A DNA stretch of 64,000 bases. It comes from Deuterostichococcus epilithicus (lineage: Eukaryota > Chlorophyta > Trebouxiophyceae > Prasiolales > Stichococcaceae). Position numbers and translations under genes: made by a program. The notes beneath the pieces were generated by a model. That model saw only the letters and a program-made list of their open reading frames with translations, had not been told where the DNA came from and searched no databases. The stretch covers positions 3,472,001-3,536,000 of the forward strand of contig JAVTLE010000014.1 of the NCBI GenBank assembly GCA_033439295.1, written 5' to 3'. Below are positions 45,683-53,321 of the stretch, piece by piece. Positions within the stretch are counted from its first letter, which is position 1. Each line of letters starts with the position of its first letter.

Positions 45683-48600
45683 ATGGCGGGTCAGCAATGG
45701 TCGCTGACGCCGGAGCAGCGCGCCATCACCGTCGAGCGTATCACAGCGAGCATCACCAATTTGGCATTCGCGCGCGGTGTGGCGCTGACCCTGGATGACG
45801 CCCGCAAGGCGGCTGCCACGGCGGAGAAGACGGCCCACACGGTGGCGCAGGTCGAATCGCGCACGACGACGGGCTCCCGCCCGGAGACTGAGAGCCTGCA
45901 GGCATATACCAGGTCAGTTGGTTGAGCGGCATGCAAATGCGTATTGATCGGTCGACAGAGCAGGCTGTAAGAAGCCTTGACGGGGCGCAGAGCTGAATCT
46001 CTCTTGATTTCTTCTGAATTGTGCACAAACCAGGAAGCTGGGCATGCTGGTGCTGGAGGCGGCAGAAAAGGCGGGCAGCGTGTCTAGCGGGGACGCGGCT
46101 GCTGGCGAAAATGGCATCGCAGAGGTGAATGTCGCTGCGTCCCTGACGCCTGGCGGAGCTGCTGTACCCATTTTAATATCCAAGTAGCTCTCAACTGCCA
46201 CGAGTTGCAGCTGCATCTGGCCTCTATCACATAGCGCATGGGCCAGGTATGGCACGCCACATGCCCGAGATGCCGATCTCGAGGCGATTGTTATCTCTGC
46301 AGCGTGACACTCTGGACCTGAGCGGCGAGCGGGCGTTCCTGAACCGCGAGCTCGCAGAGGACGCGCTCTCGCCGCTTCTGGCAGACAACGCCGCCATCAC
46401 AAAGGCGAGCACCCGCACAGCGAAACCTTTCATGCACAATGGGGATTATGGCACCCCTGCTGCGCATGCCATGTGAGCACGTGACAATGCCGTGCAGTCG
46501 GGGCGCCGGGCTCGCCTGGGCCGTGAGTGCAACACCGCCCAAACTGCAGATCAAGCTGAGCACGAAGAGCTTTGAGCCGGCGGCGGCGGAGGTGCTGGCG
46601 CTAGGGATCGGCAACGTGCGCGGCAGCCTCGTGGACGCGGATCTTTCCGACATCATCGCAGGTGGCCCCTGATTTTGTATATCCCAAGTGGCAGCTACGA
46701 CTTGTGCACACTGTTATCGCATGTGCCGGCACTGGGTGTTACCTTCAATGGTGTGCAGCCGCGATGACGCCCTTGCGGATACCGTTCGCTGTCGGTGGGG
46801 AACTTGCTCCAGACATGTTATGCAGCGTCGCGCTCTCTGGAAGGCTGTCGACAGGTTTGCGCGACTGATTAGGGATCTGGCTTCGGGGGGGCAACAGGTC
46901 GCGCCGCGCCGCTTGACACACGCTCTCTGAACCTCCCGCGCAGCGGGCATTCCACAGTCCTAGAATCCGATCTAGGGTTGTCCACGAACCTGCAGGGCGG
47001 CCCGAGGACCAGGCGCTGGAGTCGCTGCGCATAATCAGCGAAGCGGTCGCAGCGCACGGGCGGCTAGAGGGCATCAACCTCAGCGACAATGCGCTCGGCG
47101 AAAAGGGCGTGCGCGCCTTTGCCGCCGGCCTACGCGACCAGGTGCGGCGTCAGGCAGTGCGCCAAGCGTGGATGCTTGCTCTTGAGCAGCTGCACTGTGG
47201 CACCATGGCATCCAGCTGCATGAGCGTGTCCAGCTGCAGCATGCAATCGCGGTTGTGCGCAGGCCGCGATTGATTGACGAGACAGACGGTGTTGGCGTCC
47301 TGGCCTGGTATCGCTGCCCAGCCCTGACAGTGGCCATCCGCAGGCGGCGCTGCAGCGGGTGGCTTTCCAGAACGTGGGCGCGTCCATCAAGGCCTGCCGC
47401 GCGATCGCGGAGCTCATACCCAGCAGCCAGGCGCTGGCGCAGCTGCACCTGTTCAACAACATGAGCGACAACGAGGGCGCGGCCGCGATCGCCGAGCTGC
47501 TGACGCGCTCCCCCGCGATGGCGGACTTCAAAATGGCGTCCTCCCGTGTCGGCGCCGAGGGCGGCATCGCGCTCGCCAAGGGACTGTCGGCAGGTGTGCA
47601 CAGCCTGCTGGGCCTGGCGCACAAGCTCAGGGTCCGGAGTGGCACAGTGGAAGTGTGAAGGATAGTCGGTTGCTGGGCTCCCTGCTGCCTGCTGCTCGGC
47701 AGTGCTGGGCGGACCTGCACGCTTGCGGCCTCGTCTGGCGGCACACGAGGAGCTTGAGGTATGGATCTCAAAAGACAAGAACAACAGGTCTCGATCGACA
47801 ACGCCTCCTGCAAAGAATCGCAGGCACCAGCCTGGTGCAGCTGGACGTGAGTGACAACCCGATGACGGGGGAGGCGGCGCCGGCGCTGGCGGCGATGCTG
47901 GGCCGCCATGCCGGGCTGCGGTCGCTCAATCTGTCCGACACAGCGCTCGGCGATGAGGGCGTGTCCGCCGTCGTGGAGGCCATCCACGCCTCCTCTGCCA
48001 GCCTGGAGGTGAGTCCTGCCTCCATGGCTGTTCAATTCCAGGGGCGACAGGCTGCGGTCTGCCGGTGATCTGGGGGCTGCGCGTGCCCACAGGGGTTGGC
48101 GCCCTCAAGTTCCCCGGTTGCTTTGTGCCTCAAGACGGAGGCCCAGCCTGGGAGCTCTGATTCAGCCGCACACTGCATTTCTCAACCTCAACGAGATCCG
48201 GCAAAATCCGCTCTCAGGAGTCTGAAATGAAGTCTTTGTTCGTACCGAGCTGATGAGGATTTGTCACACGCCGATGCAGGAGCTGAACCTGGCGCTGAAT
48301 GAGGTCACGGAGGAGGGCGTAGACAGCCTGGTGGCCTTCCTGCAGGGCCGGACCGCGCTGCAGCGGCTGCAGCTTCGTGAGAACGAGCTGGGCGACGAGG
48401 GCGCCGCCGCCCTGGCGCCCGCGCTGCAGGTGCTGCAACGCTGATGCCCTTGAGGGTTTCTAGAATTCTGCAGCCTGCAGCCGCAGTTGCGACGTCTGCA
48501 CTGGCAGTAGATGGTCCCAGACGACGCTGCACCGTTTCGGCCAGCTGCAGCTGACCCGCAGCAGCGTTGGCTCCTGGTCGTCAGAGATATGCAAAGGGCA

Positions 48601-49230
48601 TTTGTGCCGATGCGCTAACACGTGGTCGAGAAAATCATTGCCGTGCTCTGTCTGCCTGCTGTCGTCACATGCTACCTGGCTGCGATGTGGCGCCATGGGG
48701 CGTTCGACTTGGGCATTGCCCTATAGAACGTGCAACCAGCATCTGCTTTTCCCATCGGCAGGGTTTGTCGGGGCTGCGAGAGCTGGACCTTTGCGGCAAC
48801 CAGATCCGGGGGCACGGCGCACTGGCCGTCGCGCGGGCAGTGGCGCAGCTGCCGTGCATGGCCTCCTTGCAGCTAGACGAGAACGAGATTTCAGACGCCG
48901 CCGTCTCGAAGATCAAGGTGTGCGGAGACTGCCGTTGGCAGCGGCTCTCCGACGCTGAAAAACTCAGTTGGAATTGTCCGGACGTCGCTCTCTTCTCGAA
49001 AGCTGTGCTGGCCGCAGCAAATGCGACTATAATCCGCTGATCGTATGAAGGTCGACCTCAGCTGCGCACCTTGAACTGCATCTGTGTAGGCAGTGCTGGC
49101 GGCCGCCGGCAAGGCGGACGCCCTTGGGTCGCTTGAGGAGAATGACCCCGACGCAGACGAGGAGCTCGAGGACGATAATGATGACGTCGCGGGGCTTGCA
49201 GACCAGCTGTCTGCCGCGGCCATCCAGTAA
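45683..49230 (+). CDS. RANGAP1: RanGAP with N-terminal WPP-like domain and leucine-rich repeats
   Basis: RanGAP stimulates GTP hydrolysis by Ran on the cytoplasmic side of the nuclear envelope. The first exon (ATG 45683) encodes a WPP-like domain, with QWSLTPEQRAITVERITASI, GVALTLDDARKAAATAE and ESLQAYTRKLGMLVLEAAEK across the first splice. This domain anchors plant RanGAP to the envelope. Leucine-rich repeats of the RanGAP type follow from about 46.6 to 48.95 kb, for example GRLEGINLSDNALGEKG, LHLFNNMSDNEGAAAIAELL, LVQLDVSDNPMTGEAAPAL, LQLRENELGDEGAAAL and LRELDLCGNQIRGHGALAV. The C-terminus is acidic (DPDADEELEDDNDD) as in RanGAPs, with TAA at 49228. The WPP tripeptide itself is not conserved: the Trp is followed by SL. 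Confidence 0.9.
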
Positions 49231-49693
49231 TGTGGCGGTGTGACGAATAGAATGGATGTGATGCAGCCGGATCGCGACATGATCGACGGCCGACGGCGGG
49301 CTGCGTCTGTGCTTTGGATGAACTAATTGTGCGAGTCTGCGCCCATTGGCGACTACCATATTGCTGCCTACGCATGCTTGAGTTGCAAAGGTGCGGCAAG
49401 TGTCCAAAGAAGGAGGCAAGAGGGGAGAATCCTCCTTAAACGGCATATGCCGCAACATTCGACTCGGCGGAGAATGCTGAGATGCCCTGTATTGGCTGCG
49501 ACTGACACCTGGCCAGACCTCGGCTTCTCGCTTCTGAGTTGCTGGCCCAGCATTGAGTCGCAAAGACCCCAGATATCAGCCTTGAAATCACAGCCGCACC
49601 AGTCTGTCAACTGGACCAGCCCCTTGCAGGGGAGTCACTACTGCAACAGTTGATAAGCAGCCATCATTGCAAAGCTGCACAAGCAGAGAGCGT
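49231..49693. other. Intergenic region
   Basis: This lies between RanGAP and the mL59-like gene, both on the plus strand. Nothing beyond expected UTR and promoter sequence is seen. Confidence 0.4.
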
Positions 49694-50546
49694 ATGGCAG
49701 CCCTCCTTGCGAAATATGGAGCAGAGGCACTGCGGCCGCAGTGGGTGAACGGCACGTGGCGCAAGGCAGCCATCAGTGCCAAGAACCAGGCTCGGCTTCG
49801 GAAGGAGGCGCTGCTGGAGGGCAGGTGAACTTTTAGTAGCGCGCGGATGTGTGAAGTGACATCGTCAGGCGCTGCTCATGTGCTCATGACATCGAGCTCC
49901 TGTCGACTTTCTGTATGTGCCGCTGCTCCTGCAACAGCACTGTGCGATTTCCTCAAGCTGTTGGCGCCTGCTGCAGAGACAGGCGATGACCGTGCGGACT
50001 CCCAGCACAAAGCGAACGTGCCTTGACACCGCTGTGGCCGGCTGAAGGATTTTGTGTTGTGACAGGCCGTGGATCGGCGACGAGCTTCTACAGTCCACTG
50101 CCGCACCCAAGCGGAGGAAGCCCAAAGGTCACAAGCACGACCGGGAAGCCGCAGTCAGGTTTGCTGGTTCTGCCCATCATCACATCCGCTCGTCCACCAT
50201 GTATCTGCAATGGCTTTCCGCATGTGACGCATCACCCTAAAATGTCCACCTATTCTTTGACGCAGGCAAGCGGAAACTGCGAAGAAACTGGAGGCGATGT
50301 CCGAGAGGGTTGCACAGCATCGGGTAAGCCCTGCGCTGGCTGCGCGTGCCGGTCGTTCGACTGGTCTCCGCTCGCAGGAAGTGAATGTCACCGTTGGAGA
50401 CACCTGCTTGCCAGGGTGACGCTTGCCAGCGCCTGAGCTGCGCTGCCATGTGCGCTGCGCAGGAGTCGCGAGCACTGAAGGACGGATCCATCCTGGACCA
50501 GCTGACGATGACGCCGGCGCAGCGCCGCCTGAAGCAGCGCCAATGA
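49694..50546 (+). CDS. Probable mitochondrial large ribosomal subunit protein mL59
   Basis: Four exons join in phase: 49694–49824, 50066–50158, 50266–50323 and 50463–50546 (TGA 50544). The product is about 121 residues, very basic and helical: LRPQWVNGTWRKAAISAKNQ, RLRKEALLEGRPWIGDELL, KRRKPKGHKHDREAA, then KKLEAMSERVAQHRESRALK and a C-terminal MTPAQRRLKQRQ. The 'W..PAISA+..A.LRK..L..G..WP' opening followed by the K(G)HKHDR block is the pattern I associate with mL59 (yeast Mrpl25 family); this is recall, not a search. It would act in mitochondrial translation. The stop codon overlaps the start of the next ORF in the sequence ATGA, which is unusual for a nuclear gene. Confidence 0.55.
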
Positions 50547-52723
50547 CCGCAACGTTGTCGGGGCCGCGGCCACCGTTGCCGTTAGCCAAGCGGCCACGAC
50601 TCGCAGCGGACGGCAGCACAGCTGCGTGGCAGGAGCAGGCGTCAGAGCAGTTGCCGCAGGATTCAGCAGCCGGCGCGGCAGATGCAGCAGCGGAGGCGGC
50701 AGCGGAGGCGGCAGAAAGCATAGCGGGCACCGCAGCCGCGGTCGCGGATTCCAGTCCTGTGGAGGCGGACGCCGCAGGGCCGCAGCGCCAGAACGTTTGC
50801 CCGCTGCCGCTGCGCTACCTGCGCAGCCGGCGGACTGAATGGCAGCCGCACTGTGCGAAGGTGACGCTGAACGTGCGGCTCGATGGGCGCATCGTCCCAG
50901 CCGCTGCCGGTGGCGCGCGGGTGTCCTACAGCCACATCGCAGTGCTGGACGGCTTCATCGACGAGCCGATGCGTCGGTCTCTGCTGGACTTTCTGACGCA
51001 GCCGGCGGGCGCCGCCATGGTGGGCGCCGCCACGGCGGCGTCTGCCGGCGGGGCTGCGGGGCCGGGCCGCGCGGCAGCGGCCGGGCTCGTGCCGGCAGCA
51101 GAGGGCAGCGGACCAGAGGCGGGCAGCAGAGCGGCAGGCGGCACGGCGGCAGCAGAGCTGGGGCTGCCTGGCGACAGGTGGGAGCGGCGAACGGCGGATC
51201 AGGCGGGGCAGAGACCCACCTGGGGCGTTAAGGTGGGCGCCAAGACCTTGCATCCTTGTGCTGAGTGAGACATATCTGCTGCTGCACCCAAATGCTGACC
51301 ACCACAAAATCCTGCAATCTCAGGAAAGAGAGGAAGCATTCGTGCCTGGATCAGCCTCCGCAAATCGCCACACCTGCCAGTTGCCCCTCTCGCAAGCTCT
51401 GTGTTGCCCCAATGGTTTGAATATACGCTCAGCCCCCAGATCTCGTTAAGTGCTGAATCACTTCTGCGCTGAACTCTCAGGAGCACGTGTTGCGGGAGCT
51501 GGGGCGCGGCGAGCTGCCCGCGGTGCAGGAGGTGCACGCGCGGCTGCTGGCGCTGTACCCCGAGTATGACATCGCCCACATGCCGTCGGACCTCCTCCAG
51601 GCTGGAGGGCCTCCGAAACCAGGGGCGGGGCCGCCGGAGCCAACGGCGGGGCAGCGTCAGCCAGAGGTGGGCACATCGCAGCCGGAGGCGGGCGCGGGCG
51701 GGCAGTGCGGCGAGCAGGGCTCAGACAGGCAGGGGTGCGGCAACGGAACATGCGGCGGCTGCGCGGATGGAGCGTGCGGTACGTGCGCCGGCAGCGGCGG
51801 GCAGGCGCATTCTGCAGACTGTGACCAGTTCGTGGCAAATGCAGCGGTGCACGGCGACTGCTTTGCGTGGCACATCGATGCTGATCCTGCGGGTGCGTTT
51901 TTTGCATCACCCTGACGATCGCCGCCCGGCTGCATTGAGCTCTGAAGGGCGGTACCCAAATTGCAGGGCACGAGCATGCAAGAGAACAGCGGAAGGCGTT
52001 TATTGCACCGCTTGTTCGCCCTGCTTGATTTGGGACAGCTTCTGGACCCTTGCCTGGTCAGCCAGAAAGAATCTCCCGTCTCCTTCCTTGCAGGCCTGCC
52101 AGAGTCGCCTTGGACAGCGGCTTTTGGCGACTACTGCAACGGCGAGCCGGGGCGCCCGCTGTTCGTCAGCCTCATCCTGTACCTCGACGAGGACTGGCCG
52201 CGGGAGAACGACAGCGAGACGCTGTTCCTGGACTCGGGCGCCGACGTCGGCGTTGTCGTGCGTCCCAAGCGCTACCGCGCCGTGCTCATGGACCAGGTGC
52301 CTGCCTGTCGACTGGCCATTTTCTGGCTCCGAGCTGCTTCCCCTGACCTTTTTCGTTTCTGGGCTGGGCATGTGCATCAGGTGACAGTTTTCCTTCCAAG
52401 GCGGCATGGGGCGCCCTTCCTTTCGGACCCCAGTCGTCTGAAATGTACTTGCCAAGAGACATGGTGCTCCAGACAGGTCCATGGACAGCGCAATACCTCA
52501 GATGCTGTCGAACTTTGCACAGGATGTGCTGCACCGCCTGTCCGCGCCATCGCCAGCGGCCGGCCGGCCGCGATTCTCGCTGGTGTGGAAGCTTCTGTTC
52601 GTACCGCGTTCTCCCGAGCAGGCGGCGTGCTTAGCACGGCGGGAGTGGGGACTGCCAACCTCTTTTGCAACCGCCGCGCGAGTCGACGCCGTCCGGCGGG
52701 CGATGCTCAGCCAGCCAAAGTGA
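50543..52723 (+). CDS. 2-oxoglutarate/Fe(II)-dependent oxygenase, prolyl-hydroxylase-like
   Basis: Four exons: 50543–51232, 51481–51892, 52094–52296 and 52523–52723 (TGA 52721). The N-terminus is an Ala/Glu-rich low-complexity region, then PLRYLRSRRTEWQPHCAKVT and VLDGFIDEPMRRSLLDFL. The double-stranded beta-helix core is clear: the HxD iron ligands in FAWHIDADP (near 51.87 kb), PLFVSLILYLDEDWPREN, the distal His in DVLHRLSAP (near 52.53 kb), and the 2OG-binding Arg in GRPRFSLVWKLLF. So iron and cosubstrate sites are complete. Just before the HxD is a Pro/Gly-rich stretch and a tight cluster of Cys (about 51.70–51.83 kb), not typical of the family. ATG 50543 is the first in this frame. The substrate (protein prolyl or other) is unknown. 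Confidence 0.85.
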
Positions 52724-53321
52724 CATCCTATCTCGCCTGGTTGCAACTCTGGGCGGTGGGCTCGACACCCTGTTTGAAACTTACTGTCGACTGAGCATTT
52801 CAGTTTGCGTGAGGTAAATCGAAAGGCCCGCGAAACGAAGGTCCGAAAGGCCCGCGCCAGCGATTGCCCGATTGGCCTCATCCCTCGTGTGTAACAGCAC
52901 AATTTCCCTTTCCTCGCTCCTCAGCTTCTACAGCTTCCGTAGATCTCCCTCTGCAACAGAAGACTGAACGGAGCATTTTCCAGTCTGCAGTACTCGTGTT
53001 TACAAACATACATCGTGCTGGCAGCCCCGTCTGTAAAGTCAAATTTGACTCGATCTGATTTCCGGAAGCTTAGTGCAGCTCGTCGCCCGCGGCTCCGAGG
53101 AAGCGCTTCATCTTGGAATCATTCTCCGTTGACACCGTCACATTCTGGGCAGGGCCGGGTGTGGAAGAAACTGTTCAGTGATTTGATCGTAACTGCAACT
53201 CTCCGCGTAAGGCGTCCCTCTACCTGGCAAATCTCGTCGCCAGCCAATCACACGACGGTCCACCAGACCTGACAAAATATCGGTCCATCTGCGTCCGGTA
53301 CCGCGCATTGAGGACTGCAAC
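52724..53321. other. Intergenic region with a short repeated GAAAGGCCCGCG word
   Basis: The word GAAAGGCCCGCG occurs twice about 24 bp apart (52820–52856). A TGTAA near 52887 could be the poly(A) signal of the oxygenase gene. No gene is seen. Confidence 0.45.

Follow-up and report, generated by a model that had tools for sequence, protein, structure and literature searches.

The mL59 and oxygenase genes described here quite probably form a nuclear bicistronic gene of a green alga, probably a trebouxiophyte, in which one mRNA carries both reading frames and the second is translated mainly by leaky scanning. The two genes lie on the forward strand of the window (the whole 64,000-nt stretch that was analysed) and meet in an overlap of stop and start codons, and their linkage appears to recur in several relatives.

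The first gene, ORF 1, occupies positions 49694–50546, and its spliced model joins four exons (49694–49824, 50066–50158, 50266–50323 and 50463–50546) across three introns, all GT–AG, into a frame of 366 nt encoding a product of 121 amino acids. This product scores 35.6 bits against PF18126, above the curated Pfam cut-off of 31.5, which marks it as a mitochondrial large-subunit ribosomal protein of the mL59/mL64 type. Its best structurally solved relative is At4g22000, a chain of the Arabidopsis mitoribosome (E = 6.8e-8), and by its likeness to solved mitoribosome chains the protein would take its place in the mitochondrial ribosome. The closest full-length homologue, P0001, shows 70% identity over 99%. 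With the protein as query, the alga’s own 46.8 Mb genome yielded no second copy, returning the locus itself and one chance-level match (E = 0.37); a PF18126 family search of the same genome gave no matches, and its search control likewise gave none.

The second gene, ORF 2, runs from 50543 to 52723 and also consists of four exons in the spliced model (50543–51232, 51481–51892, 52094–52296 and 52523–52723) separated by three GT–AG introns, which leaves a frame of 1506 nt and a product of 501 amino acids; no second copy of it was found in the 46.8 Mb genome. The two frames meet at CAATGACC, where the ATG of ORF 2 (50543–50545) lies over the TGA of ORF 1 (50544–50546), so that an ATGA at 50543–50546 (+) is shared as an overlap of 4 nt. 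Both the spliced models and the direct sequence bear out this overlap as the earlier, sequence-only reading had described it. That reading also took 50543 as the first ATG of the oxygenase, and this stands, for the nearest upstream stop in the frame is at 50417 and no in-frame ATG lies between that stop and the overlap. From 50417 to 51000 the frame contains in-frame ATGs at 50543 and 50969 only, the latter falling within the conserved oxygenase domain, and 50543–50545 is on this sequence evidence the sole usable one. The frame is also without a stop from 50420 through mL59 exon 4 to the overlap and hence, judged from the alga’s own genome alone, an upstream exon or a non-ATG start would be possible. 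Two relatives favour the start at 50543: P0085 aligns with the oxygenase from Met1 in BLASTP (61% over 154 amino acids), and P0095 aligns from residue 16 in BLASTP and from Met1 in a global alignment, both being machine-predicted proteins whose starts are the gene caller’s choice.

Linkage of the two genes in other algae was measured by the identical nucleotide size of the longest contig recorded for an mL59 and an oxygenase protein cluster, using 114 mL59 rows (120 listed of 164 matches, minus 7 without a contig, plus P0020) and 66 oxygenase rows (73 matches minus 7 without a contig). The longest contig is equal in at least eight mL59/oxygenase pairs, at 1902, 3418, 4655, 6729, 17260, 24745, 40390 and 283995 nt. 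In 400 offset controls, in which the sizes were moved up or down by 1 to 200, the pairs averaged 0.415 and never exceeded 2, against the 8 observed; above 3 kb, 7 pairs were observed and the controls averaged 0.06, again with no more than 2. Contigs shorter than 7 kb, of which there are four, necessarily hold the two genes near each other, and the longer ones (17260, 24745, 40390 and 283995 nt) indicate the same contig, not adjacency. No size-matched oxygenase row exists for 106 of the 114 mL59 rows, many of which are short or fragmentary contigs. Consecutive EukProt gene names in one species add a further case, in which P0101 (scaffold14.g1232.t1) is the mL59 and P0040 (scaffold14.g1233.t1) the oxygenase. 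Conservation of the linkage in several relatives is thus strongly indicated, and with it the adjacency in related algae that had been put forward as a check on the sequence-only reading, by the shared contigs, the consecutive names and one fused annotation from Trebouxia; in three Chlorella and Micractinium assemblies the genes stand apart.

This linkage bears directly on whether the overlap is a coincidence. Over both genes, stops included, 80 of 624 codons end in A, so that a TGA stop overlain by an ATG is no rarity as such; the unusual part is that this ATG is also the sole usable start of a real downstream gene. We find it scarcely credible that the genes are unrelated neighbours, with an ATG that merely happens to overlie the stop codon and an oxygenase that really starts elsewhere. 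Such an arrangement would draw on the frequency of codons ending in A and on the 27 YAG acceptors between 50420 and 50795 that could bring in an upstream exon, but it is contradicted by the conserved linkage and by the N termini of P0085 and P0095, which align from Met1. CAA accounts for 2 of the 32 glutamine codons in the two genes, and one of these is the last mL59 codon (50541–50543), which creates the oxygenase ATG.

The fused annotation is P0111 of Trebouxia sp. C0006 (WJX82_009835), whose first 95 residues are mL59; after the join come about 80 residues that agree exactly with the same strain's oxygenase P0025, and the last five match neither protein. An error of gene prediction at the same locus probably explains it, and it is this model alone that implies a common strand for the two genes in relatives. 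Taken at face value, P0111 would exemplify another arrangement, in which alternative splicing yields an mL59–oxygenase fusion protein in some transcripts, and the oxygenase frame of the window, free of stops between 50420 and the overlap, would permit such a product. We nevertheless judge this to be highly improbable, given that the KGHK and N[GR]EPG.P motifs occur together in P0111 only among 194 homologue records, that P0111 is without part of each protein and ends in its five unmatched residues as a mispredicted gene might, and that P0025 is annotated intact in the same strain.

Conservation of the overlap itself, a second check proposed with the sequence-only reading, is another matter. 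Five of the nine linked oxygenases exclude ATGA by their second residue (P0027, P0031, P0038, P0040 and P0067, which begin M-Q, M-E or M-G), as does the Trebouxia oxygenase with M-L, and AUGA is therefore not a general mechanism of the linked family. The other four are compatible with the overlap on their protein sequence alone, P0023 and P0095 beginning M-T, P0054 M-N and P0073 M-M, so that its conservation is not general but may extend to some relatives. An oxygenase tree of 50 rows (that of the window and 49 of the 73 matches, P0095 being left out) has good support for 25 of its 47 inner branches and leaves the deep order unresolved. Linked oxygenases are spread over several of its branches: P0023 stands beside the window gene, P0025 of Trebouxia forms a further separate branch, and P0027 is unplaced. 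The linked scaffold14, 6729, 17260, 4655, 24745 and 40390 sequences fall in a well-supported clade that also contains Chlorella and Micractinium, in which the two genes are on separate contigs in Chlorella vulgaris (D9Q98), Micractinium tetrahymenae (ABPG75) and Micractinium sp. CCAP 211/92 (ABPG77). Because these species nest beside scaffold14, loss of linkage is the simpler reading of their arrangement.

Two of the shared contigs also speak to the transcript. The proteins of the 3418-nt contig (P0001 and P0023) and of the 1902-nt contig (P0098 and P0027) have no insertion at any of the six window intron positions, whereas genomic relatives such as P0013 and P0085 seem to continue into intron sequence there. 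Beyond both ORFs, 1579 nt are left over in the 3418-nt contig and 591 nt in the 1902-nt contig. The simplest reading of these sequences is that the two contigs are assembled cDNA holding both ORFs.

The distribution of polyadenylation signals points the same way. TGTAA is the poly(A) signal of green algae. On the forward strand none occurs from 48001 to 52889, and hence none between the mL59 start and a candidate signal at 52890–52894 (+), which lies 167 nt past the oxygenase stop. At background rate, about 0.9 TGTAA would be expected after the mL59 stop. A rough calibration was made on 13 presumed last exons, of which only three have a true-looking C terminus, and in these the first TGTAA lies 368 nt (L026), 41 nt (L060) and 280 nt (L071) past the stop; over all 13 stretches of up to 1 kb, TGTAA occurs 12 times in sense and 4 times in antisense orientation, and 6 of the 13 are without a sense copy. 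Given these figures, and since the putative leucine-rich-repeat gene upstream is also without one, the absence of TGTAA lends mild support to one mRNA. That neighbour, a putative gene at 48555–49230 (+) with LRR scores below the Pfam cut-offs, ends 463 nt upstream of mL59, and no forward-strand TGTAA lies between the two. On the other side, the next gene, which runs from 53322 onward on the same strand and starts about 600 nt past the oxygenase stop, encodes a membrane protein resembling Got1/Sft2 (PF04178, 76.7 bits, with the exons joined by eye). The two-ORF transcript offered as a candidate in the sequence-only reading is in this way supported, indirectly, by the linkage in several relatives and by the lack of a forward-strand TGTAA from the mL59 start to 52890.

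The same observations have to be set against an arrangement of two overlapping but separate transcription units. Here the oxygenase promoter would lie inside mL59, with mL59 exon 4 serving as its 5′ UTR, mL59 would be polyadenylated within the oxygenase gene, and the linkage would stem from shared regulatory DNA. Genes are close in this region, with 463 nt separating the putative LRR stop from mL59 and roughly 600 nt separating the oxygenase from its downstream neighbour; many alternative isoforms in Auxenochlorella are predicted to come from internal promoters; an assembly that joined overlapping transcripts would also yield two-ORF contigs; and Chlorella and Micractinium tolerate separation. 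We consider such an arrangement unlikely, as with an overlap of 4 nt any mL59 3′ UTR would have to lie within the oxygenase gene and, more weakly, as no forward-strand TGTAA follows the mL59 stop until 52890.

In the ORF 2 product, H361, D363, H439 and R452 occupy invariant columns of a 16-row alignment, and the motif H-x-D-[AC]-D-P is present in 50 of the 50 family members examined. PF13640 (2OG-FeII_Oxy_3), which several homologues bear in precomputed annotation, scores 20.6 bits on the window oxygenase and 24.4 on its homologue P0027, both below the 27-bit cut-off, and the protein is therefore assigned to the 2OG-Fe(II) superfamily only and not to that Pfam family. It has the H-x-D...H iron triad and, to judge by P0027, the double-stranded β-helix that characterises the superfamily. 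The fold comparison used the AlphaFold model of this homologue (pLDDT 93.8). Its top Foldseek match is PHD2 (E = 8.9e-7; TM 0.40 by query and 0.54 by target), and in a second structural alignment an algal P4H, the Pseudomonas putida P4H, PHD2, OGFOD1 and Tpa1 are near-equal (Z 12.4–13.3); judged by this model, 2OG oxygenases of the prolyl-hydroxylase fold would be the nearest to the ORF 2 product. A sequence search of the PDB with the oxygenase returned one chance match only (E = 0.96), NCBIfam gave a partial match to P0027 far below cut-off, and the oxygenase alignment found no relative in viral_contigs or genome_contigs, as expected of a eukaryotic gene. Together, the PF18126 score, the iron triad and the fold of P0027 support the identities of an mL59-like protein and a 2OG oxygenase that had been read from the sequence alone.

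OGFOD1 acts on a ribosomal protein, and EF-Tu is named in structure entry 4iw3. That some fold relatives of the oxygenase act on proteins of translation could be a hint to its function, and a suggestive one only. Residues 16–19 of the oxygenase (50588–50599, +) read KRPR, in the context LAKRPRLAADG, and match the NLS-like motif K[KR]x[KR], from which a nuclear signal may be inferred. The motif occurs in 31 of 50 oxygenases, against an average of 4.8 and at most 11 when the sequences were shuffled 500 times; 29 of the 31 carriers have it outside the core, and two solely in the core stretch VRPK[RK].RA. The 19 oxygenases without it include the linked P0027, P0054, P0067 and P0073. In the window protein the motif suggests that the oxygenase may be a nuclear enzyme. 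The functional link between mitochondrial translation and an oxygen-dependent hydroxylase that the sequence-only reading had envisaged is not supported, nor is a mitochondrial role of the oxygenase, since the KRPR motif is NLS-like and published pairs are mostly without shared function, many being predicted to be functionally unrelated (PMC11892635).

With regard to known systems, nuclear bicistronic loci of green algae were reportedly described by Gallaher in 2021. The green-algal bicistrons of PMC11892635 (Duenas 2025; preprint PMC11291117) resemble the present locus in having a short ORF 1 and a longer ORF 2 on one strand with minimal spacing, a linkage kept across algae and a mitochondrial protein as one partner, and overlapping stop and start codons are known for some bicistronic loci of Auxenochlorella. 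The ORF 1 medians given there are 357 and 291 nt, and the two ORFs of a pair lie a median of 183 and 40 nt apart, whereas monocistronic neighbours are separated by medians of 3415 and 2518 nt (PMC11892635); the corresponding values here are 366 nt and −4 nt. Collinearity in that work means that orthologous ORFs are neighbours on the same strand in other algae (PMC11892635). In contrast to the published bicistrons, the mL59/oxygenase locus is without clear AUG depletion in ORF 1 and has a weak ORF 2 start context. CDC26–TTM3, a conserved nuclear bicistron of plants and algae (PMC11892635), likewise places a small protein first, although the proteins are others. The mL59–oxygenase pair was found neither in literature searches nor in the text of PMC11892635, and the supplementary locus lists, which lie outside that scope, may hold an earlier listing. 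Most likely, the locus is an addition to an already described green-algal bicistronic arrangement.

We propose the following course of expression for the single transcript, which we infer along with its translation route. A single promoter upstream of 49694 would give rise to a pre-mRNA from which six introns are removed and which is polyadenylated after 52890. The mature mRNA would then hold ORF 1 (mL59) and ORF 2 (oxygenase), overlapping by AUGA. Ordinary cap-dependent scanning would produce mL59, and the oxygenase would be made for the most part by ribosomes scanning past the start of ORF 1, as in Auxenochlorella, where mutational tests support leaky scanning (PMC11892635). At the AUGA overlap, ribosomes that finish mL59 may also restart immediately and contribute some oxygenase. 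We favour leaky scanning as the main route of oxygenase translation, with fair rather than full confidence, and such a restart is the alternative.

The start contexts fit leaky scanning imperfectly. The starts of ORF 1 and ORF 2 both carry C at −3 and differ at +4, which is G in ORF 1 and A in ORF 2; published ORF 2 starts, by contrast, tend to lie near consensus, with A or G at −3 and G after the ATG (PMC11892635). Within ORF 1 there are 3 ATGs against 3.62 expected, a ratio of 0.83, for which the published medians are 0.71 and 0 (PMC11892635). One of the three, at CDS nt 23, is out of frame and is flanked by A at −3 and G at +4; it opens a 10-codon ORF (49716–49748, +) that closes inside exon 1, and the two in-frame ATGs come after it. 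Pure leaky scanning would be expected to lose ribosomes at this second ATG, and some oxygenase translation may stem from restart, either behind the 10-codon ORF or at AUGA behind mL59. A weak ORF 1 context, few AUGs before ORF 2 and a consensus-like ORF 2 start are, in the published set, statistical tendencies and not requirements of each locus (PMC11892635).

A stronger role for the overlap can also be envisaged, in which an old bicistron was fused at AUGA in the lineage of the window, and oxygenase synthesis is coupled to mL59 termination instead of depending on leaky scanning. Termination–reinitiation at AUGA is a viral mechanism, as in victoriviruses, and the likeness lies in the overlap of stop and start as AUGA, whereas the mL59/oxygenase locus is a cellular nuclear gene with introns. 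Coupling of this kind seems to us a doubtful account of the locus, yet if true, it would tie the output of an oxygen-dependent hydroxylase, PHD-like and probably nuclear, to that of a mitochondrial ribosomal protein at a constant ratio.

Under the preferred reading, a bicistronic gene translated mainly by leaky scanning, the locus lengthens the short list of nuclear bicistrons by one conserved candidate. Its imperfect start contexts make it a natural test case for leaky scanning versus termination-coupled restart, and hybrid annotations like P0111 may serve to find further bicistrons in annotated genomes. A linkage that is kept in several lineages and absent in Chlorella and Micractinium lets the purpose of the bicistronic arrangement be asked.
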